A program made the translations under genes and the position numbers. A model generated the notes under the pieces. It worked only from the letters and a program-made list of their open reading frames with translations. It did not search any database and was not told where the DNA came from. Shown here piece by piece: positions 1 through 57,957 of a DNA stretch of 64,000 bases (the first letter of the stretch is position 1; each line of letters starts with the position of its first letter). The DNA lies in contig NC_049986.1 in the NCBI RefSeq assembly GCF_000003815.2, positions 20,126,052-20,190,051 on the forward strand, given 5' to 3'. This DNA is from Branchiostoma floridae (Eukaryota; Chordata; Leptocardii; Amphioxiformes; Branchiostomatidae).

Positions 1-279
1 AAGTGCATCTGCCATACACGATGGCGTGTCGCTTATGACACCATATATACCGAGGAACAGGCGGGTCATTAACCCTATTATCATATAGCCTACCCACACT
101 AACCCATTTAAGAGTAGAGTAGAGTTTCCGGTTGGGTAGGAGCGACAAATTCCTTTATAAAACATACATCTTTTATTCAGTACATAAATTTGAACAGTGA
201 ATTTGAACAACATAAAACTTGTACGTGAAATGTCTCTCAGTTCCAAGTCTTGAAATTAGAACAAAGTCGATTTATTATG

Positions 280-468
280 TTACAAACTGTTGCATGCTCC
301 GTATTTCTCCACTCGCCCATTCTCAAGTTTATCTAGTTCGTTCGTATCAGGCGGTAAATCTCTAGCTGCCGGCTTTCCTGAGGCATTCCGGGATCCCTGT
401 GCTTCACAGCTCTTGAGAATCTCGTTCACTACGAACTCAGACACGTCTTCCCCGAAGTAAGGTAGCAT
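280..468 (-). CDS. Small conserved ORF in unit 1, function unknown
   Basis: An open frame of 62 codons starts at ATG with MLPYFGEDVSEFVVNEIL and ends KYGACNSL then TAA. It is acidic and probably helical at its start, with no signal peptide, membrane segment or motif I recognise. The frame stays open upstream of the ATG for a further 8 codons (to a TAG), so it could be a spliced 3' exon rather than a complete microprotein. It recurs in all four array units. The coding case rests on the substitution pattern in unit 4. Confidence 0.35.
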   Translation of the reverse strand: MLPYFGEDVSEFVVNEILKSCEAQGSRNASGKPAARDLPPDTNELDKLENGRVEKYGACNSL

Positions 469-1648
469 TTTGGTCCTCCAGTGCCATGACCACTACTCAC
501 TGGCGGACCGTGGTGTTATTGTCGTCTGAACTTGAATGGGCGGGGGTGCAATTAATTTCATTTTCAATTTGCAGTTTAAATTGGACATGACTTGAAATAG
601 ATTTTATTGTCCGAAATAAATGTTTTCTTTGAAGCACGCACTACCGATGCTAATAGAGATGCAATCCAGCCTGCCATGTCTGCACTTATTCCCCCATCTT
701 GGCAGATGGACGATTCCTGGATATCTCATTCTGATTAGCCAGCGTCCTGTTTGTCTGTCCTTCTGATTGGTTCAAACTTTCAAAAGTCATTAATGCACAC
801 GTGCAATAATGAAACGATTAATGCACGGCTGTTGATGATTTTCCATCTGTTACGGCGTCATAACCAGCATGAAATGGGGCCTTCTGATTGGCCCACGTCC
901 CCTGGCTATATGATAATCCTCAATCAGGACTGAATATATAACGATTGAATGAATGACGACCTTTATTGTACATACATACCCACTGGGTTCAGTACATATC
1001 GCAACGAAAGATCCATGGAATATATGCAATGAATCTACAATTCTCAAGAATCGTATTCTACTACGTAAATTCCACCTCTGCTCGTTTCTTTGTGATATTG
1101 AAAATATAGGAACAGATTTGCTTTATAAGTAAAGGTCTGTCTAAATTCATAAGGAATATTAATTTGTCTATATTAATAAGTTGTATGAAGTGGGGGAACA
1201 TCGGGCTCTATCAGTCTATAGAGTTCAGCTCTCTCTTTCTTGCACAAACTACATTCTACTACAAAATGATGTTCATCTTCTAAGAACTTATCTAGATTGC
1301 ATTATCTACATATTCATTGTTCTAGAGGAGTGCGGTTATGTCTTCCGGTTACAACGTGTAATTTGTGGTAACTGATTCGTAGATTTGTGACGGCCGCCCT
1401 GTGCCGAATGTTGTCAATATCCAGGCATTGTTTTAATTCTAGGTGGACTTGAATAGTCTGTAAGACCTCAATTTGTTTTTAGCCGATCCACCTTTGTTAT
1501 CATTGTGTAGCTCTCTCAGAAAAGTTTGAAAATAAATGTCTTTCAGACGCTGATTGATAGAACTGATAATTTGAGACGAAGATAATCAGGAGATGTATTT
1601 CGCTGTCGTTTGTGTCACGAGGACTTTAAATTCCATGTTGTGTTACAG

Positions 1649-1840
1649 GTGAACGAGAAAGGCAGCGAGGCGGCCGCGGCAACCGGTGTTGTGGTCCGGC
1701 TCTTGTCCGCCGACTCCTGGCTTGAAACTCCGCCCACAATCCGGGCCGACCGCCCCTTCCTCTTCCTCATCCGGGACAACCGCAACGACTCCATTCTCTT
1801 CATGGGCAGAGTCACTGACCCCACCGGGGGCAAGGAGTGA
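1649..1840 (+). CDS. Serpin terminal exon, loop cassette 1
   Basis: This is a 64-codon 3' exon entered through a TGTTACAG acceptor in phase 0. It encodes the end of a serpin: a hinge with GSEAAAATG, the reactive centre loop, then strands with [11 protein letters not shown] and ILFMGRVTDP, and a TGA stop. Counting from P17 (Glu, residue 3 of the exon), P1-P1' is Leu-Ser, inside the segment VVVRLLSADSW. A poly(A) signal AATAAA lies at 1894-1899. The small hinge residues indicate an inhibitory serpin that traps a protease by loop insertion. No plus-strand serpin body is present to the left, so upstream exons must lie outside the window. It could instead be an orphan duplicate, but the acceptor, frame, stop and poly(A) signal are all intact. 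Confidence 0.85.
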   Translation: MNEKGSEAAAATGVVVRLLSADSWLETPPTIRADRPFLFLIRDNRNDSILFMGRVTDPTGGKE

Positions 1841-3118
1841 CGGAGTAGAGCGTCATGAAAACAAGAAAGGCAACTTGATAGAGTAATGATGAAAATAAAT
1901 ACTCACAGAGACAGAAAGCCGTTACCGTTATCGTGCAAGTCACACGGAATTTCCTCACTTAGAAATGACCCTTTTCTGAATACATAGTATATAATCTTAA
2001 ATCAACTGTCTACCGTGTGCTCTTTGGTAGGATAAATTGCTTTTATTGAATTGTCATGGCAGAAGCAGAAAAGGGAAAAAAAGAAGAACATGCCAGAAAA
2101 ACAATATGTTTTCCCTGTCCGGACCACTGACAACCGTTGAAAACTGTTAAAGCGCCAGTGAAATAAAATTTCCTCTCTCATCCGCGTACAAATTGACATA
2201 CAAATCAACACAACACAGCGAAAAAAACATTTAAAAATGTTGTCTGATTACTTGCTGCGATATGAGGAGTATGGAAGCTTTCGTAAAATTACAATCCAAG
2301 CTTTGTGGTGAGTTTCTAGTGGATTAATCGGCCTATTGCTGTCTTATTAGCTTCGCCAAGAAGGTTATGCTCTATGTAGCGTTTGTATGTATCAGTGTAT
2401 GTGTATGTATGTAGAGGACCAGTTTAACTTATGAATGTCTGGATGGATGGTATTGATAGTATGTGATACTATAAAACGCTTAGGTTTTGGGCCCACTAAT
2501 ATAATGGCTCTTCACGGTACTGTAGTTGAAGTCTGGTTTTAGTATAACGTTATCGTCACTCCTTCGGGTTGGTCGCCAGTCCTAAGAACATGATCGTTCC
2601 TGTCAGATTGTGCTGTATGAAGAACAGGAACGGCCGGTTGACGTCGATTAAATTTTGGGCCCCCTAGCGGCTCTATACGGTACTTATACGGAGTCCGTTT
2701 GTGACATCTCGTTACTCATTCGGGTTGGTGACCCGTCCTAAGAACAGGATCGTTCCAGTGGGTTTGTGCTGTATGAAGAACAGGAACGTATGAAGAACAG
2801 GAACGGCCTGTTGACCATGAAGGCTTCGCTCACTCGGGTTTTATTCGGTGGTTATAGCAAAGGACCAGGCGTTATGACACCATATATACCGAGGAACAGG
2901 CGGGTCATTAACCCTATTATCATATAGCCTACCCACACTAACCCATTTAAGAGTAGAGTAGAGTTTCCGGTTGGGTAGGAGCGACAAATTCCTTTATAAA
3001 ACATACATCTTTTATTCAGTACATAAATTTGAACAGTGAATTTGAACAACATAAAACTTGTACGTGAAATGTCTCTCAGTTCCAAGTCTTGAAATTAGAA
3101 CAAAGTCGATTTATTATG

Positions 3119-3307
3119 TTACAAACTGTTGCATGCTCCGTATTTCTCCACTCGCCCATTCTCAAGTTTATCTAGTTCGTTCGTATCAGGCGGTAAATCT
3201 CTAGCTGCCGGCTTTCCTGAGGCATTCCGGGATCCCTGTGCTTCACAGCTCTTGAGAATCTCGTTCACTACGAACTCAGACACGTCTTCCCCGAAGTAAG
3301 GTAGCAT
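3119..3307 (-). CDS. Small conserved ORF, unit 2 copy
   Basis: This copy is identical to the unit 1 copy (280-468). Its identity adds no independent evidence for coding because the whole unit is identical. Confidence 0.33.
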   Translation of the reverse strand: MLPYFGEDVSEFVVNEILKSCEAQGSRNASGKPAARDLPPDTNELDKLENGRVEKYGACNSL

Positions 3308-4487
3308 TTTGGTCCTCCAGTGCCATGACCACTACTCACTGGCGGACCGTGGTGTTATTGTCGTCTGAACTTGAATGGGCGGGGGTGCAATTAATTTCAT
3401 TTTCAATTTGCAGTTTAAATTGGACATGACTTGAAATAGATTTTATTGTCCGAAATAAATGTTTTCTTTGAAGCACGCACTACCGATGCTAATAGAGATG
3501 CAATCCAGCCTGCCATGTCTGCACTTATTCCCCCATCTTGGCAGATGGACGATTCCTGGATATCTCATTCTGATTAGCCAGCGTCCTGTTTGTCTGTCCT
3601 TCTGATTGGTTCAAACTTTCAAAAGTCATTAATGCACACGTGCAATAATGAAACGATTAATGCACGGCTGTTGATGATTTTCCATCTGTTACGGCGTCAT
3701 AACCAGCATGAAATGGGGCCTTCTGATTGGCCCACGTCCCCTGGCTATATGATAATCCTCAATCAGGACTGAATATATAACGATTGAATGAATGACGACC
3801 TTTATTGTACATACATACCCACTGGGTTCAGTACATATCGCAACGAAAGATCCATGGAATATATGCAATGAATCTACAATTCTCAAGAATCGTATTCTAC
3901 TACGTAAATTCCACCTCTGCTCGTTTCTTTGTGATATTGAAAATATAGGAACAGATTTGCTTTATAAGTAAAGGTCTGTCTAAATTCATAAGGAATATTA
4001 ATTTGTCTATATTAATAAGTTGTATGAAGTGGGGGAACATCGGGCTCTATCAGTCTATAGAGTTCAGCTCTCTCTTTCTTGCACAAACTACATTCTACTA
4101 CAAAATGATGTTCATCTTCTAAGAACTTATCTAGATTGCATTATCTACATATTCATTGTTCTAGAGGAGTGCGGTTATGTCTTCCGGTTACAACGTGTAA
4201 TTTGTGGTAACTGATTCGTAGATTTGTGACGGCCGCCCTGTGCCGAATGTTGTCAATATCCAGGCATTGTTTTAATTCTAGGTGGACTTGAATAGTCTGT
4301 AAGACCTCAATTTGTTTTTAGCCGATCCACCTTTGTTATCATTGTGTAGCTCTCTCAGAAAAGTTTGAAAATAAATGTCTTTCAGACGCTGATTGATAGA
4401 ACTGATAATTTGAGACGAAGATAATCAGGAGATGTATTTCGCTGTCGTTTGTGTCACGAGGACTTTAAATTCCATGTTGTGTTACAG

Positions 4488-4679
4488 GTGAACGAGAAAG
4501 GCAGCGAGGCGGCCGCGGCAACCGGTGTTGTGGTCCGGCTCTTGTCCGCCGACTCCTGGCTTGAAACTCCGCCCACAATCCGGGCCGACCGCCCCTTCCT
4601 CTTCCTCATCCGGGACAACCGCAACGACTCCATTCTCTTCATGGGCAGAGTCACTGACCCCACCGGGGGCAAGGAGTGA
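4488..4679 (+). CDS. Serpin terminal exon, loop cassette 2
   Basis: The sequence is the same as cassette 1 (exon at 1649), including acceptor, stop and AATAAA (4733-4738), and the surrounding 2.84 kb is also the same as far as I can read. The predicted P1-P1' is again Leu-Ser. The identity means either a very recent duplication, active gene conversion, or an assembly duplication; the sequence alone cannot say which. Confidence 0.82.
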   Translation: MNEKGSEAAAATGVVVRLLSADSWLETPPTIRADRPFLFLIRDNRNDSILFMGRVTDPTGGKE

Positions 4680-5957
4680 CGGAGTAGAGCGTCATGAAAA
4701 CAAGAAAGGCAACTTGATAGAGTAATGATGAAAATAAATACTCACAGAGACAGAAAGCCGTTACCGTTATCGTGCAAGTCACACGGAATTTCCTCACTTA
4801 GAAATGACCCTTTTCTGAATACATAGTATATAATCTTAAATCAACTGTCTACCGTGTGCTCTTTGGTAGGATAAATTGCTTTTATTGAATTGTCATGGCA
4901 GAAGCAGAAAAGGGAAAAAAAGAAGAACATGCCAGAAAAACAATATGTTTTCCCTGTCCGGACCACTGACAACCGTTGAAAACTGTTAAAGCGCCAGTGA
5001 AATAAAATTTCCTCTCTCATCCGCGTACAAATTGACATACAAATCAACACAACACAGCGAAAAAAACATTTAAAAATGTTGTCTGATTACTTGCTGCGAT
5101 ATGAGGAGTATGGAAGCTTTCGTAAAATTACAATCCAAGCTTTGTGGTGAGTTTCTAGTGGATTAATCGGCCTATTGCTGTCTTATTAGCTTCGCCAAGA
5201 AGGTTATGCTCTATGTAGCGTTTGTATGTATCAGTGTATGTGTATGTATGTAGAGGACCAGTTTAACTTATGAATGTCTGGATGGATGGTATTGATAGTA
5301 TGTGATACTATAAAACGCTTAGGTTTTGGGCCCACTAATATAATGGCTCTTCACGGTACTGTAGTTGAAGTCTGGTTTTAGTATAACGTTATCGTCACTC
5401 CTTCGGGTTGGTCGCCAGTCCTAAGAACATGATCGTTCCTGTCAGATTGTGCTGTATGAAGAACAGGAACGGCCGGTTGACGTCGATTAAATTTTGGGCC
5501 CCCTAGCGGCTCTATACGGTACTTATACGGAGTCCGTTTGTGACATCTCGTTACTCATTCGGGTTGGTGACCCGTCCTAAGAACAGGATCGTTCCAGTGG
5601 GTTTGTGCTGTATGAAGAACAGGAACGTATGAAGAACAGGAACGGCCTGTTGACCATGAAGGCTTCGCTCACTCGGGTTTTATTCGGTGGTTATAGCAAA
5701 GGACCAGGCGTTATGACACCATATATACCGAGGAACAGGCGGGTCATTAACCCTATTATCATATAGCCTACCCACACTAACCCATTTAAGAGTAGAGTAG
5801 AGTTTCCGGTTGGGTAGGAGCGACAAATTCCTTTATAAAACATACATCTTTTATTCAGTACATAAATTTGAACAGTGAATTTGAACAACATAAAACTTGT
5901 ACGTGAAATGTCTCTCAGTTCCAAGTCTTGAAATTAGAACAAAGTCGATTTATTATG

Positions 5958-6146
5958 TTACAAACTGTTGCATGCTCCGTATTTCTCCACTCGCCCATTC
6001 TCAAGTTTATCTAGTTCGTTCGTATCAGGCGGTAAATCTCTAGCTGCCGGCTTTCCTGAGGCATTCCGGGATCCCTGTGCTTCACAGCTCTTGAGAATCT
6101 CGTTCACTACGAACTCAGACACGTCTTCCCCGAAGTAAGGTAGCAT
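5958..6146 (-). CDS. Small conserved ORF, unit 3 copy
   Basis: The predicted protein is identical to the unit 1 copy, although unit 3 has diverged elsewhere, for example around the serpin cassette. Confidence 0.35.
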   Translation of the reverse strand: MLPYFGEDVSEFVVNEILKSCEAQGSRNASGKPAARDLPPDTNELDKLENGRVEKYGACNSL

Positions 6147-7326
6147 TTTGGTCCTCCAGTGCCATGACCACTACTCACTGGCGGACCGTGGTGTTATTGT
6201 CGTCTGAACTTGAATGGGCGGGGGTGCAATTAATTTCATTTTCAATTTGCAGTTTAAATTGGACATGACTTGAAATAGATTTTATTGTCCGAAATAAATG
6301 TTTTCTTTGAAGCACGCACTACCGATGCTAATAGAGATGCAATCCAGCCTGCCATGTCTGCACTTATTCCCCCATCTTGGCAGATGGACGATTCCTGGAT
6401 ATCTCATTCTGATTAGCCAGCGTCCTGTTTGTCTGTCCTTCTGATTGGTTCAAACTTTCAAAAGTCATTAATGCACACGTGCAATAATGAAACGATTAAT
6501 GCACGGCTGTTGATGATTTTCCATCTGTTACGGCGTCATAACCAGCATGAAATGGGGCCTTCTGATTGGCCCACGTCCCCTGGCTATATGATAATCCACA
6601 ATCAGGACTGAATATATAACGATTGAATGAATGAAGACCTTTATTGTACATACATACCCACTGGGTTCAGTACATATTGCAACGAAAGATCCATGGAATA
6701 TATGCAATGAATCTACAATTCTCAAGAATCGTATTCTACTACGTAAATTCCACCTCTGCTCGTTTCTTTGTGATATTGAAAATATAGGAACAGATTTGCT
6801 TTATAAGTAAAGGTCTGTCTAAATTCATAAGGAATATTAATTTGTCTATATTAATAAGTTGTATGAAGTGGGGGAACATCGGGCTCTATCAGTCTATAGA
6901 GTTCAGCTCTCTCTTTCTTGCACAAACTACATTCTACTACAAAATGATGTTCATCTTCTAAGAACTTATCTAGATTGCATTATCTACATATTCATTGTTC
7001 TAGAGGAGTGCGGTTATGTCTTCCGGTTACAACGTGTAATTTGTGGTAACTGATTCGTAGATTTGTGACGGCCGCCCTGTGCCGAATGTTGTCAATATCC
7101 AGGCATTGTTTTAATTCTAGCTGGACTTGAATAGTTTGTAAAACCTCACTTTGTTTTTAGCGGATCCACCTTTGTTATCATTGTGTAGCTCTCTCAGAAA
7201 AGTTTGAAAATAAATGTCTTTCAGACGCTGATTGATAGAACTGATAATTTGAGACGAATATAATCAGGAGATGTATTTCGCTGTCGCTTGTGTCACGAGG
7301 ACTTTAAATTCCTTGTTGTGTTACAG

Positions 7327-7518
7327 GTGAACGAGAAAGGCAGCAAGGCGGCCGCTGCAACCGGTGTTGTGTCCCGGGTACTCTCCCTCAACGACTGGCT
7401 TGAAACTCCGCCCACAATCCGGGCCGACCGCCCCTTCCTCTTCCTCATCCGGGACAACCGCAACGACTCCATTCTCTTCATGGGCAGAGTCACCGACCCG
7501 ACCGGGGGCAAGGAGTGA
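7327..7518 (+). CDS. Serpin terminal exon, loop cassette 3
   Basis: The exon has the same length and splice phase as cassette 1, but its loop is rewritten: codons 16-23 differ from cassette 1 at 11 of 24 bases, while the other 168 bases differ at 4. The loop reads VVSRVLSLNDW. P1-P1' is Leu-Ser by hinge counting, P4 changes from Val to Ser and P2'-P4' change completely. Arg at P3 and Ser at P1' are kept. The hinge P13 residue is Lys instead of Glu. AATAAA lies at 7572-7577. The intact frame argues for function. Confidence 0.85.
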   Translation: MNEKGSKAAAATGVVSRVLSLNDWLETPPTIRADRPFLFLIRDNRNDSILFMGRVTDPTGGKE

Positions 7519-8234
7519 CGGAGTAGAGCGTCATGAAAACAAGAAAGGCAACTTGATAGAGTAATGATGAAAATAAATACTCACAGAGACAGAAAGCCGT
7601 TACCGTTATCGTGCAAGTCATATGGAATTTCCTCACTTAGAAATGACCTTTTTTTGAATACATAGTATATAATCTTAAATCAACTGTCTACCGTGTGCTC
7701 TTTGGTAGGATAAATTGCTTTTATTGAATTCTCATGACAGAAGCAGAAAAGGGAAAAAAGAAGAACATGCCAGCAAAACAATATGTTTTCCCTGTCCGGA
7801 CCACTGACAACCGTTTAAAACTGTTAAAGCGCCAGTGAAATAAAATTTCCTCTCTCATCCGCGTACAAATCGACATACAAATTAACACAACACAGCAAAA
7901 AAACATTTAAAAATGTTGTCTGATTACTTGCTGCGATATGAGGAGTATGGAAGCTTTCGTAAAATTACAATCCAAGCTTTGTGGCGAGTTTCTAGTGGAT
8001 TAATCGGCCTATTGCTGTCTTATCAACTTCGCCAAGAAGGTTATGCTCTATGTAGCGTTTGTATGTATCAGTGTATGTGTATGTACGTAGATTACCAGTA
8101 TAACTTATGAATGTCTGGATGGACGGTATTGATAGCATGTGATACTATAAAACGCTTAGGTTTTGGGCCCACTAATATAATGGCTCTTCACGGTACTGTA
8201 GTTGAAGTCTGGTTTTAGTATAACGTTATCGTCA

Positions 8235-8790
8235 CTCCTTCGGGTTGGTCACCAGTCCTAAGAACAGGATCGTTCCTGTCAGTTTGTGCTGTATGAAGAA
8301 CAGGAACGGCCGGTTGACGTCAATTAAATTTTGGGCTCCCTAGCGGCTCTATACGGTACTTATACGGAGTCCGTTTGTGACATCTCGTTACTCATTCGGG
8401 TTGGTGACCCGTCCTAAGAACAGGATGGTTCCAGTGGGTTTGTGCTGTATGAAGAACAGGAACGGCCGGTTGACGTCAATTAAATTTTGGGCCCCCTAGC
8501 GGCTCTATACGGTACTTATACGGAGTCCGTTTGTGACATCTCGTTACTCCTTCGGGTTGGTCACCCGTCCTAAGAACAGGATGGTTCCAGTGGGTTTGTG
8601 CTGTATGAAGAACAGGAACGGCCGGTTGACGTCGATTAAATTTTGGGCCCCCTAGCGGCTCTATACGGTACTTATACGGAGTCCGTTTGTGACATCTCGT
8701 TACTCATTCGGGTTGGTGACCCGTCCTAAGAACAGGATCGTTCCAGTGGGTTTGTGCTGTATGAAGAACAGGAACGGCCTGTTGACCATG
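8235..8790 (-). repeat. 156-bp minisatellite of serpin tail plus transposon fragment
   Basis: Four copies start at 8235, 8391, 8547 and 8703, exactly 156 bp apart. Each holds, on the minus strand, the last ~26 codons of a serpin terminal exon ([10 protein letters not shown]... to a stop) followed by a GC-rich fragment containing GGGCCCCCTAGCGGCTCTA. A closely similar fragment (GGGGCCCCTAGCGGCTCC) lies inside the inverted-repeat element near 36.76 kb. Units 1, 2 and 4 have two copies each (for example 2559 and 2715). In units 1-3 the hinge and loop are missing, so these are remnants. Confidence 0.88.
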
Positions 8791-9100
8791 AAGGACCGGC
8801 TTCGCTCACTGGGTGGTTTTATTCGGTGGTTATAGCAAACGACCAGGCGTTATGACATCATATATACCGAGGAACAGGCGGGTCATTAACCCTATTATCA
8901 TATAGCCTACCCACACTAACCCATTTAAGAGTAGAGTAGAGTAGAGTTTCCGGTTGGGTAGGAGTGACAAATTCCTTTATAAAACATACATCTTTTATTC
9001 AGTACATAAATTTGAACAGTGAATTTGAACAACATAAAATTGTACGTGAAATGTCTCTCAGTTCCAAGTCTTGAAATAAGAACAAAGTCGATTCATTATT

Positions 9101-9289
9101 TTACAAACTGTTGCACGCTCCGTATTTCTCCACTCGCCCATTCTCAAGTTTATCGAGTTCGTTCGTATCAGGCGGTAAATCTCTAGCTGCCGGCTTTCCT
9201 GAGGCATTCCGGGATCCCTGTGCTTCACAGCTCTTGAGAATCTCGTTCACTACGAACTCAGACACGTCTTCCCCGAAGAAAGGTAGCAT
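9101..9289 (-). CDS. Small conserved ORF, unit 4 copy
   Basis: This is the most diverged copy. Within 189 bp I see three base changes against unit 1: two are synonymous (a GCA/GCG Ala and a CTA/CTC Leu) and one is conservative (Tyr to Phe at residue 4). There is no frameshift. That is the pattern expected of a constrained protein, although three changes are too few to prove it. Confidence 0.38.
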   Translation of the reverse strand: MLPFFGEDVSEFVVNEILKSCEAQGSRNASGKPAARDLPPDTNELDKLENGRVEKYGACNSL

Positions 9290-9964
9290 TTTGGTCCTCC
9301 AGTGCCATGACCGCTACTCAATGGCGGACCGTGGTGTTATTGTCGTCTGAACTTGAATGGGCGGGGGTGCAATTAATTTCATTTTCAATTTGCAGTTTAA
9401 ATTGGACATGACTTGAAATAGATTTTATTGTCCGAAATATTATAGGTAATTCAATGTTGTTTTAAGGCGGCAAATGTTTTCTTGGAAACACGCACTACCG
9501 ATTCTAATAGAGATGCAATCCCCCTGCCATGCCTGCACTTATTCCCCCATCTTGGCAGATGGACGATTCCTGGATATCTCATTCTGATTAGCCAGCGTCC
9601 TTTTTGTCTGTCCTTCTGATTGGTTCAAACTTTCAAAAGTCATTAATGCACACGTGCAATAATGAAACGATTAATGCACGGCTGTTGATGATTTTCCATC
9701 TGTTACGGCGTCATAACCAGCATGAAATGGGGCCTTCTGATTGGCCCACGTCCCCTGGCTATATGATAATAGTCTGTAAGACCTCAATTTGTTTTTAGCC
9801 GATCCACCTTTGTTATCATTGTGTAGCTCTCTCAGAAAAGTTTGAAAATAAATGTCTTTCAGACGCTGATTGATAGAACTGATAATTTGAGACGAAGATA
9901 ATCAGGAGATGTATTTCGCTGTCGCTTGTGTCACGAGGACTTTAAATTCCATGTTGTGTTACAG

Positions 9965-10156
9965 GTGAACGAGAAAGGCAGCGAGGCGGCCGCTGCAACC
10001 GGTGTTGTGTCCCGGGTACACTCCCTCAAATTCTGGCTTGAAACTCCACCCATCATCCGGGCCGACCGCCCCTTCCTCTTCCTCATCCGGGACAACCGCA
10101 ACGACTCCATTCTCTTCATGGGCAGAGTCACCGACCCGACCGGGGGCAAGGAGTGA
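9965..10156 (+). CDS. Serpin terminal exon, loop cassette 4
   Basis: This is the fourth loop cassette, with the same length and phase. Its loop VVSRVHSLKFW differs from cassette 3 at 4 bases within codons 16-23, and all four change the protein: P1 Leu to His, P3' Asn to Lys, P4' Asp to Phe. There is one more loop-side change, Thr to Ile after the PP pair. Predicted P1-P1' is His-Ser, which would fit a different protease from the Leu-P1 cassettes. AATAAA lies at 10210-10215. It is the last plus-strand cassette before the minus-strand serpin 1 begins. Confidence 0.85.
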   Translation: MNEKGSEAAAATGVVSRVHSLKFWLETPPIIRADRPFLFLIRDNRNDSILFMGRVTDPTGGKE

Positions 10157-11031
10157 CGGAGCAGAGCGTCATGAAAACAAGAAAGGCAACTTTATAGAGT
10201 AATGATGAAAATAAAGCCTGACAAAGACAAAGCACCGTTACTGTTATCGTGCAAGTCACATGAGATTTCCTCACTTAGAAATGACCTTTTTCTGAATACA
10301 TAGTATATAATCTTAAATCAACTGCCTACCGTGTGCTCTTTGGTAGGATAAATTGCCTTTATTGAATTGTCATGGCAGAAGCAGAAAAGGGAAAAAAGAA
10401 GGACATGCCAGCAAAAAAATATGTTTTCCCTGTCCGGACCACTGACAACCGTTGAAAACTGTTAAAGCGCCAGTGAAATAAAATTTCCTCTCTCATCCGC
10501 GTACAAATTGACATACAAATCAACACAACACAGCAAGAAAAACATTTTAAAATGTTGTCTGATTACTTGCTGCGATATGAGGAGTATGAAAGCTTTCGTA
10601 AAATTACAATCCAAGCTTTGTGGTGAGTTTCTAGTGGATTAATCGGCCTATTGCTGTCTTATTAACTTCGCCAAGAAGGTTATGCTCTATGTAGCGTATG
10701 TATGTATTAGTGTATGTGTATGTATGTAGAGGACCAGTATAACTTATGAATGTCTGGATGGATGGTATTGATAGTATGTGATACTATAAAACGCTTAGGT
10801 TTTGGGCCCACTAATATATATAAATGGCTCTTCACGGTACTGTAGTTGAAGTCTGGTTTTAGTATAACGTTATCGTCACTCCTTCGGGTTGGTCACCAGT
10901 CCTAAGAACAGGATCGTTCCTGTCAGTTTGTGCTGTATGAAGATCAGGAACGGCCGGTTGACGTCGATTAAATTTTGGGCCCCCTGGCGGCTCTATACGG
11001 TACTTATACGGAGTCCGTTTGTGACATCTCG

Positions 11032-14000
11032 TTACTCATTCGGGTTGGTGACCCGTCCTAAGAACAGGATCGTTCCAGTGGGTTTGTGCTGTATGAAGAA
11101 CAGGAACGGCCTGTTGACCATGAAGGACCGGCCGAAGTTCCCGCTGCGCCCCCGCATCACCACTGCTGTGGCCGCCGCTGCCTCCGAACCCTCTTCGTTT
11201 ACCTGGAATGATTGTTTTGTTTGAATTCACACAAGGCTGTGTAAAAGACATACAGTCGGGGATACTTACCAACTGGAGGCTATTATAAAGGGTAAGGCCT
11301 TTGTCACATTTCTAAACAGGGGTCCTGCCAGGCAGATTAACGAACGTAAAGTATGATATAAAAGCCACCAAACTACACAAGACGTAAAGAGAATAGTCGT
11401 GGACATTATTTGTGTTTATTATTAGGTTTCTATGTTTTTGTTTCCAGCCCGGGCGGGCCCTGGTTTGGAAATATGGCGTTAGCCCAACTGCACAATATAC
11501 CACAAGCAATATTAACGGTTACAATGCATACGAAATGCGTTTACAGAATGAGATACATTTGTACATGTTTTTTACAGGTAAAAATGAATAAGCGGGTCCA
11601 CCAAAATGCGCACGCACGAGGTCAAAGGTGAAGGCCCCTTACTAGGGCTGGGTACCGGTACAGAAAATTCAGGTCTAGGTCCGGTTCAGGTCCAGAGGAT
11701 CAGGTCCAGGTCCAGACCTGAACCTGGACCTGATTCAGTATGACTCATACCAATGGTCCATTTCACTACATCTGTTTGGGGGAGTATTAGACTTACACTG
11801 GCGTTTTAAAATACTACAACGATAACTGCACCTGTACGATTGGCTGTAAACTTTGGTAGAAATTACTATAAACTCTACTCTACTTCATTCTTGTCATTTT
11901 CTTCCAACTGCAAGCGCCAAAACGTGTGAATGCCTGATATAATATGATATGTTAATTTTCTAATCGGTCCAACATCCGGTCCACCTAATTTTTTCAGGTC
12001 CGGTTTTTCTGGACCGGTCCAATAAGAAAAACCGGTTTTGTACCGGTACGCTGTACCGATACCCAGCCCTACCCCTTACGTTTAGTCAAGTCTTGTCTAG
12101 ACCATGCTTGATACATGTCCGAAGGTGTTCTGTGTCTAACGTTATGTCTCATGGGCCTTCAGCTTTCACATACGCAGGCGCAAATCAAACCACGAACTAG
12201 CTTATGTAGCTCCTGTCTTTCGGAGTAAATATTTATAAAAAAACGATTTAATTTCATATTTTGGTACTCTCTGATATTTGCCATCATATATATACTTTGT
12301 ATTTCTATACTTGCGTTCTACGTCCTCAACGACATTGTTCTTGAGTTCTCTGAATGACCATGATGACATCTATCAGTACCGTGCGAATTCGACTACTGGG
12401 GGTGTCTCACTAATCTCGAACCAGATCCACGGTGAGTAATGTATAGTATCAAACTTTCCGTAGTTTCAAACTTCTCCGGTGCCCGTTTGACTCCCTTGGC
12501 CGGCTACACTCATTGGCCAGCTTTGATACTATCTTATGGCACCGTAGGATCTGCTTGGAGATTAGTGTCTCACTTTGTATGGAAGGGAATGTAATACTGA
12601 CCTCTACGAACGCCTTGTGCAGGACCTCCGACACGTGAAGCCCCTTCTCACCCGTGACCCCTGACAGGTCAGCGGTTTCCATGGAGAACAGGTCCGTCAT
12701 GCCCAGCGCAGTCAACTGATTCTTCAGGCTGAGCGCATGCGTCAGACGGAACTTTGGAAGAGCTACGTCCAAACTTCTCACCTCTTGTAAACTGGTAAAA
12801 ATAGGAGAAAGGTATGTCTATTAGCGCTTTCTAAAGGCTAGATAATGTTAATTAGCATGATTATTATTTACTTCATCTAGTGGTTGAAAAAAAAACGCGG
12901 GTAATGTGGCGTAACTAAAGGGTATTTGGCCCAGAACCTAGAGGTGCTGGATTAGAATCCTTTCACTCTATTGATCTTGTGCCCTTAGTAAAACCACGCG
13001 CTATACACGACTTTCCTCACTCCACCCTGATGTGAAAATGAGAAACGTACTTCGGTGGGAGGAGAGAGTTGGCCTCTGCCCCCATACCGTGTACGAGATA
13101 CAGGCAATAATCCATGTACGTAAATGAGCGTTTCTTATCGAGGTGGTTGGTTAAACTACACGTAACGTTATGTTTACAAAGTAACTTGTATAGAGTCTGC
13201 CATACAAAGTGAGTGACAACAACATCTTTCGTTCGCTTAGCTTAGCGTACATAGATATAGAAGCCAACCTTTTGCTGCGCGTCGCGTCCAACAGGGCCTC
13301 GCTGGTCAGAACGGCCTCTACGTCCTTCAACCCGAACATCTGTTTCGGTAGAATGACAAACATGGCCAGCTCGTCGCCAGCGTAAGGCAACTCCAACATT
13401 CGGCACCGCAGATTCGGCAAATCCGCCATTCTGAACTTCCCGCGCTGATGCATGGTGGGAGTCGTGACGTGGTTTCCGGAACTGGCGAAGAATTTCCGGT
13501 CGTATGTCTCCCTCGGGTCGAACTGCGTCTGCCACGTGCCCTTGAAATAGACTGCGTTCACTAGAACTAGTCTGGTCAGAGCGTTCAGGACATCCTGCAA
13601 GGGAAAGAGAGGAGGAAATACATTACTAAGCAAGCAATCAACCAATCATCTAAACAAAAGTAAGGTAAGCAAGCAATCAGCCAGCCAGTCAGCCAACCGA
13701 CCGACCGACCGAGCGACTGAGCGACCGACCGACGACCGAGCGAGCGAGCGACCGACGACCGACCGAGCGACCGACCGAGCGACAGACGGCCGACCGAGCG
13801 ATCGACCGACCGAGCGCGCGTGACCGACCGACCGACCGACCGACCAACCGACAAACCAACCAACCCACGTGCACCATCCAACCAGCCAGCCAGCCAGTCA
13901 GCCAGCAAACTACTCTTTCGGAATTAGATTATTACATTATCTTTACCTTTGGGATGAGGTCGTTGATCTTCCTTTTCGTCTGAGTTGACACCCAACTGTT

Positions 14001-17000
14001 GATCCTTGACCGAGACCTCTCCTCATCGAAAAAGTCCACCTTCTCCATACGAGCGTTGTAGTAACGGGAGGTGCCGCTCAAGAAATCGTCTTCTAATCTA
14101 GAGGAAAAGAATCATAGAACCGAATTATCAATTTATTCCATGCCTATAACGCGCAACACTGTAAAATGTCGTTTGGCCGCAGAATATGTTGTGTTGAATA
14201 AAGATTTTACACACATAATCATGTGTTGATTACAGCGTATACGAGGCAGCCACATAGATTTTTTCGAGCTCTTTCGTAAATTCTACGGCGTAACAATCAA
14301 TATGAAATGGGGCCTTCTGATTGGTCAACGTCGCCTGGCCTTACATTCATAATGTAACTTATCAGTAGCTGTATACTCTCCAAGTAGAGGTTACGCTCCT
14401 GCGCTGTTTAATACGTTTTTTAGTCGCTTTTGTCGGGCTTTCTATTTTGTATTGTATCTGGTATTGTCAAACCCAAATCTATTTTGACAATACAAGATAC
14501 AATACAAAATAGAAAGCCCGATGAAAACGACTTAAAAACAGCCGGAGCCTAACCTTTGCTTGGAGAGTAGTAGCCGTATACAACGCTTTGTCTTACATGA
14601 CAATTGTTGCTCAATAAACTTTGACCTTACTTGCTGTTGAATTGTATTTTCAAGTTTCCATTATGATTACAATTTTTCATCATGATCATGCATCTTAAAT
14701 AATTCAAATAGCCAGCCTCAGACAATCAACACCGCCCTGTACGCAAGACTAATCTTGGGTTGTTTGTCACACGACATAACGGACCAGCTACCGAGGGATG
14801 CACCCTGCAAAAATAACAGACTAAAGCCATACTACATGAGATCTTGCCCAGAAAGCGCAGATAAAGCTGTGACTTGAAAGGTATGTTTCAACCGGTAGAT
14901 AAACATCTTTGTTTATTTGTTTATTGAACTTTCCATATCAATGGAGGGCGAGACAAAACAGTTGACAGGTCACCTCTTCACGTTGTCTCCACGAAACGCC
15001 CGATTAAGCCGTGACTTAAAGGTATGTTTCTGCAGGTAGATAAACACTTAATTATAAGGTAAACCTATTGTATAGGCAGTCCGTTCCACCATATTCAAAG
15101 TTGAATTCTCCAAGCAGATGTTGAGGTGTAAGATCGTGACGTTTTCCGGAAAACTAAAGCCGGAAGAAAACGATAAACATTTTCACCCCACATCTGCTTG
15201 GATATTAGATGAGTACTGAAGAGGACACGTTGTCCCCTGAGACGTTTAGTTTGTAACGTCATAGTTCTGGAGAAATTCTACCGGACTGACAATGTCATCT
15301 CGCCAGGTCGCAGTCCGTTTCATTTTTTTTTTTTTGGCCTGTTGGGGTCGCAGAACACAGTATTGATCCCCAATAGCGGTTCGGGTATAAAGTAGTGCGC
15401 CAAAAAAGCCGTTAAGTCCACATTGTATTGTCTGTTGCAATCTGAATGATAAATCAAAGTCGTTGAGATTCTACTGTACCTGGCATGCAATACCCCCGAC
15501 GAACACAGCATAATCACAATTGACCGAAGCACAAGTTGGATTACGATGTTTGTTCGATCGATAGGTGTGAATTTAGTCCCTGATATTAGTAGAACCACTT
15601 CGTTCAAGGGGTATAAATACAGTTACTCCAAGTTTTCTTCAAGCAATTACTGTGATTGCTTACAGTCATTGCTTACAATACAGTCATTGCTTGAAGACAA
15701 TTACAATTTGGAGTAACTAGAACCACTTCATTTGACACATGAGCCAGAGCATGCAAAGAAAGGTCACAAATTATTTTTCGACGGTAGTGACTATAGAATG
15801 ACTATGATACGTTTTCTATCCTTCTCCTGATTTTCTCATCTAGACTGTGCAAACAAAGTCAGAAGCACGTCAGCAAAAAAGAGTAAACAACCCCAATATG
15901 AATATCAAGCAGCCAGATCCAGACAATCAACACAACCTTATATAACAAATGACCACTACTGTAATCTAAAACTATTGGTTACATACTGCTGGGGAAAAAC
16001 TACTGAAGTATTTATCCTCCCACGGACATAGGTCCACCGATATTTCTAAAAATCTCTGCTGCTTTATTTGCACACGAAGCAAGCATATACATGTATTCAA
16101 ATTAGTACACCCCTCCCTTGATGTACATTTATACCGCCATTCCACTAGGACGGCGCTCTTACCGCGCTCTCTCTTCGACCTAAAATTTGACATATCGCTC
16201 AACATCATCATCCGGGCGTGCTGGCTCAACGAATTGTATAGACAAGAATATTTTTACATTTTCGTTGTTTTGTTGTATTCTCAGTCACATGTTTACGTTT
16301 TGTACGATATACCAAGTGTAAAAGCGAAGGTTACACATATCCTTTTTATGTCGCAGTGAGAGCGCAGCGCTATCGCCTTCTAGTGGATCACGGGGGGGGG
16401 GGGGAGGGGGTCTTAGCCACGGTCTCGATACACATTGGCCCCCTCAGAAATCTTCACATCGACAACTGAAAAGCCAAAATCTATTCACACGTAATTTGGC
16501 ACATAATTTAGTCAAGAATTCCAGCATGTACACGTGGGTGTCGAAGCGAAAACGTTAACGTTGTACCTTTCTTTGTTGATTAATAAAACATACACAACGG
16601 AAAGCACTTTCTGTTAATCAGTATGCTTGGAGCCATTCCGAAATCTGATTTCAATTTCGTTGTTCTTTAACTTTTTAAAGTACAAAAAAAAAATTGACAA
16701 TAGGTCAACAAGAATAATCAAATTGCTGAGAGAACGACATCGAATCAAGCCAGACAACATTTACTCTCGACCTTGTGTAAACGAAGACGTTCGAATTCAC
16801 TTTCTTTGTATGTTTTTAGTTGGATATTTATTATCTTTTTTGAATTCGAGATCCAATTTTAAGATATTTTCTAGATTAGGCTTTAAAGAAAAAAATCATT
16901 GTTCTGTTTAGGTGGCAGGACACAATGGCAAGAAAGCTGCGACACCTACTTATTTTCCTTCTCATCATCCTGAAAGAGCCCAACACATCAGAACCGTACA

Positions 17001-20000
17001 TCTGTAAACCATCATCTCATACCAGATGCTGCAAGAGCCTCGGCCTCACCAGCATCCCTCCGAACCTCCCAGCATCCATCCGCGAGTTAGATTTACAAGA
17101 TAACCAGATATCTAGCATTCAGCCGGGTGCATTTGAAAATATTATCCAACTCGAAAAGTTGTGGCTGGACGACAACAAATTAGCAGAGCTTCAGGCAGGT
17201 GCCTTTAAAAATCTGATTTGGCTCTCCGAGTTGTATCTGAAGAACAACAAAATAAGAAATATCCAGGATGACACATTTGCAAATGTACCCCAGCTGCGAA
17301 TGTTAAAGCTGGATTACAACCAGATAACGATGATTCAGCCTGGGTTATTCTCCAACTTAATCACCCTCGAGTGGGTACATCTGAACGATAACAAGATAAG
17401 AAAGATCGAGGCGGGTACTTTTGTAGATCTACCCCAGTTAAAACGCGTGCAACTGGTCTATAACCGGATAACAAAGATTCAGGCCGGTGCATTTAAAAAT
17501 TTGCCGCAGCTACTAAAGGTGATTCTGTCCCAGAACCAAATAACAACGATTCTGTCTGGTGTTTTTGAAAATCTGCCCAGACTACAAACGCTGCACCTGA
17601 GACAAAACCAGTTGACAGAGATTCGGCCTGCCGCATTTGCAAATCTGCCCCAACTGGAAAATTTAGACCTTAGCCAGAACAAAATTTCTGCCATTTCCCC
17701 TTCAGCTTACGATTTGTTGGCATCCCTCAGTCGAATATCACTTCGCTGGAACCCACTTCAGTGTGACTGTAAAATGGCACCCTTCAGGCTAAAGATTGCT
17801 GAATTCTCCCTGGCGTACAAAACACAGCTAATATGTGCCAAACCCACTAAATTAAAGGGGAAACAACTTATAAAGATCAATCCTAAAGACTTGATATGTG
17901 AAGAACCTACCATACCAACACTGCCTGTTAATATCCAAACCTCATTCCCTTCACCTCCAGTGTCAGCATCTTCTCCATTTTGCGATACAGAAAACAATGC
18001 TGGAGGTCCTGAAGGCTCCACATCTGCCCCAAGGCTACCTTTTCGTCCCATAGAAAGTGCCGACAACTGTAACACCGTCACCTCCAGCTATCACTGGTAC
18101 TTTAAACACAATGCTGACTTAACAGCACGTTCTGCAGGCGAAACAAGCCAAACTAGAGCAACACGAGCTTCGCTCCTTGCAACTACTTCAGACGATCCAA
18201 AAATCGGCAGTTCCCATGAATTATCCCCTGGCCTCCCCCTTCCTGTCATCATTGCCTCCATCTTTGGTACAGTAGCTGGCATGGTCCTGACTGGTATCGT
18301 CATTCACACTATCTGGGAAAAGATGAGAGCCAGGCATCCTCATTTAGGATTAAATCCCAATGTTGTTGGTAGCACCACAAACGCTGCAGGAGCGGTTTCT
18401 GCCATCACCAGTGGTCATGATCAAAAAGGGCAGTGTCCATCTCACGTTAACATCCAGGGCAATGCCATTACCGAAATCAACACAAACACTACTGTGGCAT
18501 GTGACATTGTAGCAACCAGTGGTCAGGATCAGACCGGACAGGGCCAGTCTCACGCCATCACTGAATCCAACACACACACAACAGCTGCTTTAGTAACCAG
18601 TGGTCAAGGGCAGACAGAGCAGGGTCAGTCTCAGGCCATCACTGAATGCAACACAAACACCACAGCTGCTGTAGTGGCCAGTGGTCATGATCAGCCAGGG
18701 CAGGGCCAGTCTCACGCCATCACTGAATCCAACACACACACAACAGCTGCTTTAGTAACCAGGGGTCATGACCAGACAGTGCAGATAAGCCAGTCTCAGG
18801 CCATCATTGAATCCTTTGATGCTAGAAATCTCTCTTATGGCACGGGGCCGAATGTCTCCCAGCCAAATTCTCTGTGTGAAAATGTGGCCATCAGTGAATC
18901 CAACACAAACACAACAGCTATTGTAGTAACCAGTGATCAGAATCAGAGAAGGCAGACTAGCCAGTCTCAGGCCATCACTGAAACCAACACAAACACCACA
19001 GCTGCTGTAGTGGTCAGTGGTCAGGATCAGTCATCAAAGCAGGGCCAGTCTCAGGCCCTGGCTGAATCTTTTGATGCTAGAAATCTATCTTCTGGCACAG
19101 GGCCGAGTGTCTCACAGCCGAATTCTCTGTATGCAAATAAGGCCATCAGTGAATCCAACACAAACGCCACAGCTGCTGCAGTAACCAGTGGCTATGATCA
19201 GACAGGGCAGAGTCAGTCTCAGGCCATCACTGAATCTTTTGATGATAGTCATCTAAATAGCACAGGGCCGAATTCCCTGTATGAAAATGTGGCAATCAGT
19301 GGATCCAACATAAACGCCGTAGCTGCTGTGGTGACCAGTGGTCATGATCAGACAGGGCAGGGCCAGTCTCAGGCCATCACTGAATCATTTGATGCTAGAC
19401 ATCTATCTTATAGCACAGGGCCGAATTCCCTGTATGAAAATGTGGCAATCAGTGGATCCAACACAAACGCCGCAGCTGCTGTGGTGACCATTGGTCATGA
19501 TCAGAAAGGGCAGACTAGCCAGTCTCAGATCATCACTGAATCCAACACAAACACCACAGCTACTGCAATGACCAGTGGTCAGAATCAGACAGGGCAGGGT
19601 CAGTCTCAGACCATCACTGAATCCTTTGATTATAGTCATCTAAATAGCACAGAGCCGAATTCCCTGTATGAAAATGTGGCAATCAGCGGATCCAACATAA
19701 ACGCCGCAGCTGCTGTGGTGACCAGTGGTTATGATCATTCAGGGCAGGGCCAGTCTAAGGCCATCACTGAAGCCCACACAAACACCACAGCTACTGTAGT
19801 GGCCAGTATTCATGATCGGACAGGGCAACACCAGTCTCAGGCCATCACTGAATCCAAGCCAAACACCGTAGCTACTGTAGTGACCAGTGGTCAGGATCGG
19901 TCAGGGCCAGTTTCAGACCTTCACTGCTCTGATGTAGGGTCCTGTGGCATAACGGCGGGGAGTTTGGCTCATAATCAAAGGGTCCTGGATTCAAATCTGC

Positions 20001-23000
20001 AGGACACTTTTCAGGACGCTCCTCACTCCAGTCAGGTGAAAATAAGTACCTATCTTCGGTTAGGTCCACATTTACCGAAATGAGTAGGGGTGCTTGATGA
20101 TTTGTTGTACTATCTTCTTCTTCTTCGTTGTACTATGTAAACATTGTATTGTATTGTATGTATGTATCATTTGTATGTGTATCCAGGGCCTCCATGAAAA
20201 GCAGTGTTAGCCACTGATGGGAGCTTACCCTGGTAAAAGAACACCGAAATGAATGAATGAATAAATAAACTATCGCCTTACTTCATCCCCTGTTGTCCGA
20301 ACAGTTTGTTGGCCTCCACCAGCGTGTGCTTCTTGAGGTTTCCGAACATGGTTCTGCTGAGGTTAGAGAACGCCTGGTGAAAGTCTCCCTCAGTCAGATG
20401 TAGAACCTCCGCCATTTGGGCACTGTTTTAATGAACCAGATGTAAAATCAGATACCATGCACATACCAAGGAGCTTATATAGACATATATAGCCTCTTTG
20501 CACAGACTTATATCATCAACTGAACAGTTCTAAGCATTGATAATGTTCTCAACATATCCTACAAATTCATTGGTATCAATGTCAACTAGCTGTGATATAA
20601 TTCACATGTATATGATGTAATATTTGTGCAGAAATATACCCTATGACGTCAAAACCACAGTTGAGTTGGAATCATAAACTCCAACAATAGACCACATAGA
20701 AACTATTTCAAAACAAATTCCCCAGGAACTACTTAGATGATGCGACTTTGCACGAACTAGGGGAATTCTTTAGTCTCAAAGCAGACCCTACGATGTCTTA
20801 GAGGTAGTATCAAAGCTGGTCAAGGAGAATAGCCGGCACTGGCTCCCGTGCCCGTTTGACTCCCTTTGACCGGCTATACTCCTTGGTCAGCTTTGATACT
20901 ATCTCTAAGGCAATGTAGGGTCTGCTTGGAGACTAGGAATTCTTGCCAAACAGGCGCACTCATTACTGTTAGGCTAACCCTCGAGGCGTCGCCAAAAAGT
21001 AGCAGAGTGCATGTCCTTACGCGATATACATACATGTAAGGCAAAGACTAGTATCATAAAGTACCAAATGTCATTTAGCTGTAATATAATTCACATGCAC
21101 AATGAAATAGTATTGGTTTAGAAATATACCCAATGACATCAAAACCACAAAATGAATACAAAGATGATTACGAAACCAAGTATAATAAACTTAAAAAGCC
21201 GACAAATAGTTTTAAGTACTTGAGAATATTCCTATTGATTGTATTGTCCTTGTCAGCTGTCTTTGTAATAGTGACAGCTAGGCTTGTTGGGCAGCCCTGG
21301 CTGTGAATGCTCAACAGCCAAATCAATAAATGAACACAAAATTACAAAGCATGTGTCATAAACTGCAAAAAAAATGTAACAGAGTACATGTCCTTACGCT
21401 GTAGTGTGCCTGGCTCCCATGTACGTCATGGCCAGCGCGGCGGAGATGCTGTAGGGGGAGAAGAAGATGTTCCCGTCCGTCCGCTGACTCAGCTGCCGGT
21501 ACAGCGACAGGGCGAACGCGCTGTTGGCTTCTGCAACTTCATCCTCGGACATCACGGGGATAGGTTCTAAAAAGGCAAGGACACATCTTTGATGAAGGTA
21601 GATGAAGGTTATGCATTCAGGTAACAAATACACCGAATAAAAGTTGCTCATACAACTGGATGTGATTTTGAAAACGGTTAGACTTTTCAGATCATCATCC
21701 TCTTCATCCAGTCGTGCTGGTTGCATGGATGAACATGACTCTCTCCTTTCATCCATCCCTTTTATTCATAGCCTTGGGCAGATCTTTCACTGAACAGTAA
21801 GTGTCTTTGCAAAGCTGGTCTAGATAGGTTTAAGACAATTTCAGCCTCCAGCGACGCTGTTTTAAACATTGGACCGTTTCCAAAACTGTTTTTGTCATAC
21901 ATTTAAGACTCCGAGTGTCATGAGATAGATGCAACGTCGTATACGTAACATACCTTCTTTTTTTGGCGTTGTCGCAATCATTGTTGTGATGTCGGGCTTG
22001 TCTGTTGGTAGGTCTAACAGAAAAGGAAAAGGATAATATCGAATTGGAGCAATCTTCAATCGAAAACAAACACACACATCAAACTGAACTCTAACATCCA
22101 CTTCATGGTGTTATTTATTATTCACATGTGCTTACCAGGACATTAAAACCTTAGCCAATACTTTTAGACTACGAAATGATTTATATGGAGAAACTTACAA
22201 CTCCCAAATCGTTTATTTTCTTCTTTGTACATCTTTTCCACTTCTGAGATGTTCTTCTCTGAGTCGTCCTCTTCGCTGTTGTTTTCCTCTCGGACAGACG
22301 CCGCCGAAGTCTTAGGGTTCTAAAAGAAAAAAAAAAATCTTTGGAATTTTAAGTCTTAAGGATTATGACCACCCCAAGAAAGCACATTTCCCCTTCATGA
22401 CCCGAAAGTAAAGTGATGAGATGTAGTAGGGAGTGTACAATATATGTGCACCTTTCTTCTCTCACCACTTACGTACTAATTTTCAAAAGAACGGCTACTG
22501 GAAAACAATGACCGCTTTTATTGAAAATTTGGTGGATATTGATACAAGTTTTTTTTTTACTTCTGTACCTTATTGCTGGGCGATGTCTTGAACGTATTGA
22601 ACACCTGTCCTAACAGGTGTGTACGCTGTGCTTTTCTTTAATCTCCAAGCAAATCCTACGGTGCCATAAGATAGACTCAAAGCTGGCCAAGGAGTATAGC
22701 CGGCCAAAGGGAGTCAAACGGGCGCGTGCACACTCTTTGGCCGGCTTCACTCCTCTGCCAGCTTTTAAAACTATCTTCTGCTAACATTGGATCAGCTTGG
22801 AGATTACTTTACTTACCTTTTGGAAAGGTTTACAGCAGAACTTGTTGATATTCTTGAACAACAGTTGAGGTCCCTTCTGCTGGTAGAATGGTGTGAAGGT
22901 CTCCAGACTACAGCAGGACGGGAAGGTCATCTCTAACACGCAGGTGTGGAACCTTTCCTGTAGGGCCGCACTACAAGACGGGATTAACAACAGTAATTAT

Positions 23001-57175: not shown

Positions 57176-57720
57176 GACCCGTGGCCAGTATTAAAAGTCA
57201 ACGGTGGGGTGGGCAGTATTAGGGTCTAACCCGCCCTCACATAACCTACATTGTGTGGGGCGAAGGACCAATGTTACCGGCAAATATCTTAAACAAATAA
57301 TCCAAGATTGCAAAATTGTAGTCAAGCTTGGACCCGTGGCCAGTATTAAAAGTCAACGGTGGGGTGGGGAGTTTCAGGGTCTAACCCGCCCCCACATAAC
57401 CTACATTGTGTGGGGCGACGGACCCATGTTACCGGCAGATATCTTAAATAAATAATCCAAAAGCTTGCAAAATTGTAGTCAAGCTTGGACCCGTGGCCAG
57501 TATTAAAAGTCAACGGTGGGGTGGGGAGTTTCAGGGTCTAACCCGCCCCCACATAACCTACATTGTGTGGGGCGACGGACCCATGTTACCGGCAGATATC
57601 TTAAATAAATAATCCAAAAGCTTGCAAAATTGTAGTCAAGCTTGGACCCGTGGCCAGTATATTTCAAAGCCAATGGTGGGGTTGGGAGTATCAGGGTCTA
57701 TCTAACCCGCCCCCATATGA
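57176..57720. repeat. ~157-bp satellite, 3.5 copies
   Basis: GACCCGTGGCCAGTATTAAA recurs at 57176, 57331, 57488 and 57645 (periods 155, 157, 157). The unit includes TCAACGGTGGGGTGGG and ATGTTACCGGCAGATATC. A diverged flanking copy is visible near 56870-57160. No gene is present. Confidence 0.93.
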
Positions 57721-57724
57721 CCTT

Positions 57725-57957
57725 ACACGTGTGGCGTGAACGGTGAAGGGCTCGTGTCGTCTGCACAGGAAACCGTCAACTCTTAAAGACCACTTTTACT
57801 GATCTTTGACCCGCGCCCTGGCGATATTGAAAGTGAAACCTCCCACATCCTTCAAGATCAAGAGCTTCAATATAATGGCCTTGATACTTGATACATGTAA
57901 GATAGGCCTTAAGTGTTTCTAAAGGTGGTCCATTGGGATATACTACACCAATAGAGC

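Follow-up and report, generated by a model that had tools for sequence, protein, structure and literature searches.

A tandem series of four short serpin exons in the genome of the lancelet Branchiostoma floridae raises the question of whether these exons serve as interchangeable 3' ends of one gene, each giving the same protein body a different bait for proteases. They lie near the left end of the stretch of 64,000 nucleotides analysed here, called the window (C8:20126052-20190051, C8 being contig NC_049986.1); the genome searched comprised 513 Mb in 431 contigs, and genome-wide match counts are lower bounds, N stretches being invisible to searches. The four exons, or cassettes, are probably alternative 3'-terminal exons of one lancelet serpin gene of the L2 type, designated gene A. 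A phase-0 donor behind the residues KAFVE would be spliced to any one of them, and the chosen cassette would supply the hinge, the reactive loop, the C-terminal strands, the stop codon and the poly(A) signal. The choice would also set residues P4-P4', and hence the target protease; the predicted P1-P1' pair, as originally read, is Leu-Ser in cassettes 1-3 and His-Ser in cassette 4. From the sequence we infer that the donor uses more than one cassette, that the resulting proteins are inhibitory and that their target proteases differ.

The cassettes are 192 bp each, with a single open frame up to TGA. The same 12 bases, GTTGTGTTACAG, stand directly 5' of all four, and AATAAA starts 54 bases 3' of every stop codon, in agreement with the original prediction that each cassette has its own acceptor, stop and AATAAA. 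That prediction also counted four complete terminal exons; four are present, but cassette 2 repeats the sequence of cassette 1, which leaves three distinct ones. All four exceed the curated cut-off for the Serpin superfamily (Pfam PF00079; E 2.6e-14 to 1.3e-13). Inhibitory serpins have small residues at P12-P9 and Thr at P8 of the hinge, and the inhibitory-type sequence G-S-(E/K)-AAAA-T is found in every cassette. With the hinge Glu taken here as P17, codons 16-23 become exactly P4-P4'. The invariant Arg of codon 17 was considered as P1 and rejected, since the distance from the hinge Glu would be two residues shorter than the usual spacing. This Arg (P3, CGG) and the Ser at P1' (TCC), both described earlier as fixed, are conserved to the codon, while the P1 codon is TTG in cassette 1, CTC in cassette 3, CAC in cassette 4 and CGC in gene B, a neighbouring serpin gene. 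A search of the genome with the cassettes gave four matches, all inside the window, and no further cassette copy or unplaced haplotype was found genome-wide, as a lower-bound count with N stretches unseen.

The serpin body that the original prediction expected to the left of position 1 is present there. Pfam Serpin matches on the strand of the cassettes occur at C8:20106840-20111083 (best E 3.2e-24, above the curated cut-off), and the body exons of gene A span C8:20106840-20111077, 16.6 kb upstream of the cassettes. Exons 2-5 form one open frame, which cassettes 1, 3 and 4 (2 being the same as 1) continue to the stop. The junction KAFVE|VNEKGSE corresponds to 339c in alpha1-antitrypsin numbering, and an intron at 339c places the hinge inside the cassette. 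In phase and order the five junctions of gene A fit the L2 set 86b/151c/223b/283c/339c given in the available part of PMC2746811. The body joined to cassette 3 has conserpin as its best PDB sequence match (E 1.3e-68). Compared with the genome, the body protein matched one copy of exons 2 and 3 and two copies of exons 4 and 5 (lower bounds); the weaker matches were other serpins of 35-56% identity. The second copy of exons 4-5 (C8:20114236-20115139) is a 905-bp repeat, 99.9% identical, that stops at the 10.9-kb N run between body and window; it reflects either a recent duplication of part of the gene or overlapping pieces of the assembly. One body is thus followed on the same strand by several terminal exons in phase, three of them distinct and all provided with an acceptor, a stop and a poly(A) signal; strand, phase and intron class together favour the proposal that the cassettes would all serve this upstream body. 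The neighbouring genes B and C have one complete terminal exon each.

Variation between the cassettes is concentrated where it would matter for specificity. Divergence was counted in the gap-free columns of a MAFFT alignment of the four repeat units that carry the cassettes, and clustering was assessed by the densest 24-bp window within the exon, with 20,000 permutations per pair. Cassettes 1 and 3 differ at 15 positions, 11 of the 24 bases of codons 16-23 and 4 of the 168 elsewhere, exactly as counted earlier; for cassettes 1 and 4 the figures are 12/24 and 6/168. Outside the exon, units 1 or 2 differ from unit 3 at 38/2645 positions and from unit 4 at 50/2043, and units 3 and 4 differ at 63/2047. 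The densest windows of pairs 1/3 (11 changes) and 1/4 (12 changes) were reached in 0/20,000 permutations, and Fisher tests that set codons 16-23 against the remaining exon gave 1.1e-8 and 9.3e-9. Cassettes 3 and 4 have 8 differences: the four loop changes, all amino-acid changing, were described before (4/24), and four more lie outside the loop (4/168), which that description omitted; Fisher's test gave 0.0095, and the densest window (5 changes) was reached in 542/20,000 permutations. The original suggestion of selection or conversion at the loop accordingly finds strong concentration when cassette 1 or 2 is compared with 3 or 4, and weak concentration between 3 and 4. Codons 16-23 had been picked after the data were seen, but as they coincide with P4-P4' the choice has a justification independent of the data. 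Outside the loop the three distinct cassettes show 5 silent changes in 41 sites and 2 replacement changes in 124 sites (p 0.011; the 7 changes tallied by hand from the difference positions), which suggests purifying selection on the rest of the exon.

Several observations weigh against the assignment of the cassettes to gene A as working alternative ends. The pyrimidine content upstream of the cassette acceptors is just 12-13/20. The body and the window are separated by 10,908 N, which could conceal a further body or terminal exon; in gene A itself, exon 1 is interrupted by a 100-N gap, and a simple scan for its start or signal-peptide exon gave two weak candidates, neither convincing. Assembly errors may have added to the copy number, given that cassette 2 does not differ from cassette 1 and that the 99.9% repeat of exons 4-5 breaks off at the N run. 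As for the loop, the densest window between cassettes 3 and 4 starts at base 66 or 67 and overlaps merely the end of codons 16-23, and the densest 24-bp cluster between units 3 and 4, with 8 changes, is found outside the loop, at 7578 and directly beyond AATAAA. Short dense clusters therefore arise outside coding sequence too, and cassettes 3 and 4 taken alone are weak support for concentration in the loop.

These points bear differently on three other explanations. The array could be a young tandem duplication with a single live terminal exon, the other copies being unspliced passengers whose loops drift or are relics. The non-exon DNA of the distinct units is indeed merely 1.4-3.1% apart, units 1 and 2 do not differ at all, and the pieces of gene B copied into the units look like passengers; this explanation is nevertheless unlikely, given that all four cassettes retain an intact frame, acceptor motif and AATAAA, that replacement changes per site are fewer than silent ones outside the loop, and that a P4-P4' divergence of 46-50% against 1.4-2.5% in non-exon DNA (1 vs 3, 1 vs 4) is not drift. 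An inflation of the copy number beside the gap, through unmerged haplotypes or overlapping contigs, would account for a perfect 3726-bp run of identity between units and for the 905-bp, 99.9% repeat of exons 4-5 that ends at the same N run; with cassettes 1 and 2 identical and a long N run adjoining, the extra cassette copy could be an assembly duplicate. This explanation seems quite unlikely, cassettes 3 and 4 being distinct from cassette 1 and from each other in both exon and flank, and unit 4 lacking about 534 bp; these differences make at least three units distinct sequences, which could still be alleles placed end to end.

It is very improbable that the N run conceals a different serpin body to which the cassettes belong. 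Although 10.9 kb of N is enough for a compact gene, the gene A body has a fitting phase-0 donor and lacks a terminal exon of its own in readable DNA, where tblastn detected none between the body and the window. Alternative 3' ends of gene A thus remain the preferred explanation of the four exons.

How the loops came to differ is a further question. For cassettes 1 and 3 the loop has pN 0.535 and pS 0.279, and for 3 and 4 pN 0.231 and pS 0; silent changes are absent in the latter pair and in excess in the former. The P1 Leu codons TTG and CTC alone contain 2 silent differences in about 7 sites, against a non-exon divergence of 1.44% (binomial p ~0.004). One possible, though doubtful, origin is that positive selection repeatedly favoured point mutations in duplicated units that exchanged no sequence; this would be compatible with alternative splicing. 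The replacement excess in P4-P4' (pN > pS for 1 vs 3 and 3 vs 4) speaks for it, as does the description of the loop as a positive-selection hotspot in tandem SERPINA genes in the available part of PMC12646145, but 11 changes in 24 bp would demand about 30 times the non-exon rate of 1.44%, and the silent loop changes between 1 and 3 tell against an origin by selected point mutations alone. A better fit is that units exchanged sequence around loops that were retained, although three sequences cannot settle the matter. Unit 3 has 0 differences from unit 2 across its first 887 bp and 53 across the remainder, and it stands apart at 6/7 variable sites of the exon-adjoining intron, while at 9/13 variable loop sites the deviating unit is unit 2. 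The loop differences are most likely older than the flanks, which may have been recently homogenised or exchanged, as the 887 bp of unit 3 shared with units 1-2 indicate, while distinct loops stayed; alternatively, a short loop tract may have been imported. The 24-bp tracts of cassettes 1 and 3, searched genome-wide at up to 3 mismatches (that of cassette 4 was not searched), gave no loop donor elsewhere, the former matching just cassettes 1 and 2 and the latter just cassette 3. Template-directed mutagenesis, as in retroelement-driven diversification, was set aside, the codon lines having no single-base bias (by eye only). The loop of gene B, VVMRGRS, aligns with VVVRLLS, VVSRVLS and VVSRVHS of the cassettes, and because both share V-V-x-R-x-x-S at the same position this frame may be ancestral.

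The cassettes are carried by a tandem array of four units (Table 1). The earlier description of 2.8-kb units with near-identical flanks holds for the tandem arrangement, with the amendment that units 1 and 2 are wholly identical and unit 4 is shorter; at an offset of 2839 bp, positions 33-3758 are a perfect match to 2872-6597. The units also contain, in antisense, a 156-bp repeat that combines the 3' part of gene B's final exon with DNA downstream of that exon. Units 1 and 2 have two copies each and unit 3 has four, while unit 4 has a single copy adjoining the intact gene B exon; the repeat regions are 8229-8786 and 10873-11132. The gene B fragments in the units are devoid of hinge and acceptor and were rejected as extra cassettes for that reason. 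In the simplest history of the array, unit 4 and the neighbouring end of gene B would have been copied leftwards.

Table 1. Features of the cassette array and of the gene A body (window positions unless C8 is given).
Feature	Position	Strand	Remarks
Cassette 1, terminal exon	1649..1840	+	hinge GSEAAAATG; P4-P4' VRLLSADS; predicted P1-P1' Leu-Ser; Pfam Serpin E 2.6e-14
Cassette 2	4488..4679	+	same sequence as cassette 1 (0/192 differences); Pfam Serpin E 2.6e-14
Cassette 3	7327..7518	+	P4-P4' SRVLSLND; predicted P1-P1' Leu-Ser; hinge P13 Lys; Pfam Serpin E 1.3e-13
Cassette 4	9965..10156	+	P4-P4' SRVHSLKF; predicted P1-P1' His-Ser; Pfam Serpin E 6.9e-14
Codons 16-23 (P4-P4') of cassette 1	1694..1717	+	hypervariable tract, from sequence comparison
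AATAAA of cassette 1	1894..1899	+	equivalents begin at 4733, 7572, 10210
Array unit 1, 2839 bp	33..2871		left array edge; bases 1-32 match no other unit
Array unit 2, 2839 bp	2872..5710		same sequence as unit 1
Array unit 3	5711..8849		initial 887 bp same as units 1 and 2; four 156-bp repeat copies
Array unit 4	8850..11132		lacks ~534 bp found in units 1-3; right end enters gene B last exon
Four tandem 156-bp copies in unit 3	8235..8801	-	3' part of gene B last exon
Gene B last exon	11035..11202	-	coding part without stop; loop ...VVMRGRS
Gene A exon 2	C8:20108523-20108712	+	joins in one open frame
Gene A exon 3	C8:20109301-20109521	+	joins in one open frame
Gene A exon 4	C8:20110417-20110603	+	joins in one open frame
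Gene A exon 5	C8:20110907-20111077	+	ends ...KAFVE, phase-0 donor

Gene B, a convergent serpin gene on the minus strand (window 11035-21531, the membership of exon 21397-21531 being an assumption), has Gly-Arg-Ser at P2-P1-P1'. The same triplet is reported for the antithrombin-like BjATl of B. japonicum in the accessible part of PMC3299649, and gene B is a possible counterpart of BjATl. A third serpin gene, gene C (27707-32753, minus strand), shows a single terminal exon and contains a 100-N gap at 29627-29726. Self-comparison of the window gave other tandem repeat arrays at 18464-19926, 30614-31343, 39093-40184, 45894-46539 and 57176-57734, and palindromic stretches lie near 14374-14569 and 24577-24740.

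Another serpin locus with a comparable layout lies on the minus strand at C8:18415292-18431874 (18.415-18.432 Mb) and consists of one body and 12 loop-exon copies. The body ends in ...HKAFVEVNEEGTEAAAAT and the first base of a Gly codon, at an intron that corresponds to 352a in alpha1-antitrypsin numbering with P1 = 358. The 12 C-terminal exon copies were detected by tblastn (E 1e-14 to 0.016), 9 of them also in the Pfam search. In seven the frame stays open from the corresponding phase-1 acceptor to the end of the C-terminus, over 43-46 amino acids in six and 81 in one, with Glu, Arg, Cys, Ser, Arg, Arg and Arg at P1 by position; the remaining five have a stop at or close to the start, are shifted or are unclear, though some have other AG sites that give open frames. 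As a rough control, the 11.5-kb segment contains 8 such acceptors with at least 40 open codons behind them, and its reversed sequence contains 2. The locus includes a 724-N gap, which may conceal more loop exons. One of its loops, MMMKR-S, resembles the convertase-inhibiting NMMKR-S of Spn-1; the genome also carries a serpin with the loop NMMKRS and the C-terminus KDEL, features given for Spn-1 of B. floridae and B. lanceolatum in the available part of PMC2556349. By eye, the frame shifts within exon 1 of the second locus (near C8:18431711), for which reason its gene may be damaged in this assembly; the shift could stem from sequencing error, an allele or decay.

Like the array in the window, the second locus has a single body followed by many loop exons, but its cassettes begin at P7, behind 352a, are more diverged, and are broken or unclear in 5/12 cases. 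In the covered part of PMC2746811, 352a is listed among the introns of group V3 and not for the lancelet types L1-L3, and 339c is the sole intron position common to lancelets and vertebrates. The listing includes V3 serpins such as neuroserpin, and insect loop cassettes apparently share the position. It can be proposed, very tentatively, that lancelets swap loop exons at two serpin loci, one at 352a, which would point to an ancient bilaterian intron put to use repeatedly for multiplying loop exons, and the other, the window array, arising independently and very recently at 339c. In the latter, exchange between units would hold all but the octapeptide P4-P4' uniform, and an invertebrate chordate would have genome-encoded diversification of protease baits.

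If the assignment to gene A is true, exon-swapped serpin specificity would extend to lancelets, the chordate branch outside tunicates and vertebrates. The youth of the array permits a base-by-base comparison of flank and loop, and makes it testable whether loop diversity comes from selection on point mutations or from exchange that leaves the loop untouched. The second locus additionally poses the question of whether a loop-swapping intron at 352a was inherited or repeatedly gained.

Among the insect serpin genes, serpin gene-1 of Manduca reportedly has alternative 3' loop exons. In insects loop-exon swapping is established, nematodes and urochordates have been reported to use it as well, and Drosophila Spn42Da has four loop exons, according to the part of PMC4006314 available; the available part of PMC10513286 gives 21 C-terminal forms for Pteromalus PpSerpin-1, with the splice point at the end of the hinge and one extra G. 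No description of loop-exon cassettes in lancelets was found in the open-licence literature, mostly at abstract level. The PpSerpin-1 junction reads like the 352a junction of the second lancelet locus, which has this insect-type arrangement (behind the hinge, one extra G), unlike the cassettes of the window, which begin before the hinge in phase 0; with the intron at 339c preceding it, the hinge is part of the cassette. The L2-type lancelet serpin genes resemble gene A in intron phases and order, but the covered parts of PMC2746811 make no mention of multiple terminal exons. Tandem SERPINA arrays of rodents, in the part of PMC12646145 available, likewise have the loop as the divergence hotspot among copies; they duplicate whole genes, whereas the window array duplicates just the last exon and its flanks. 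The closest parallel is with the insect genes, in which, as in gene A, one body is followed by tandem terminal exons that contain the loop and the C-terminus and vary at protease-contact residues; unlike in those systems, the units of the window are young and differ very little, and here alternative splicing is proposed from sequence. The principle of swapping is already known, and what appears to be new is the lancelet host, the intron at 339c, the hinge within the cassette and the very young units.

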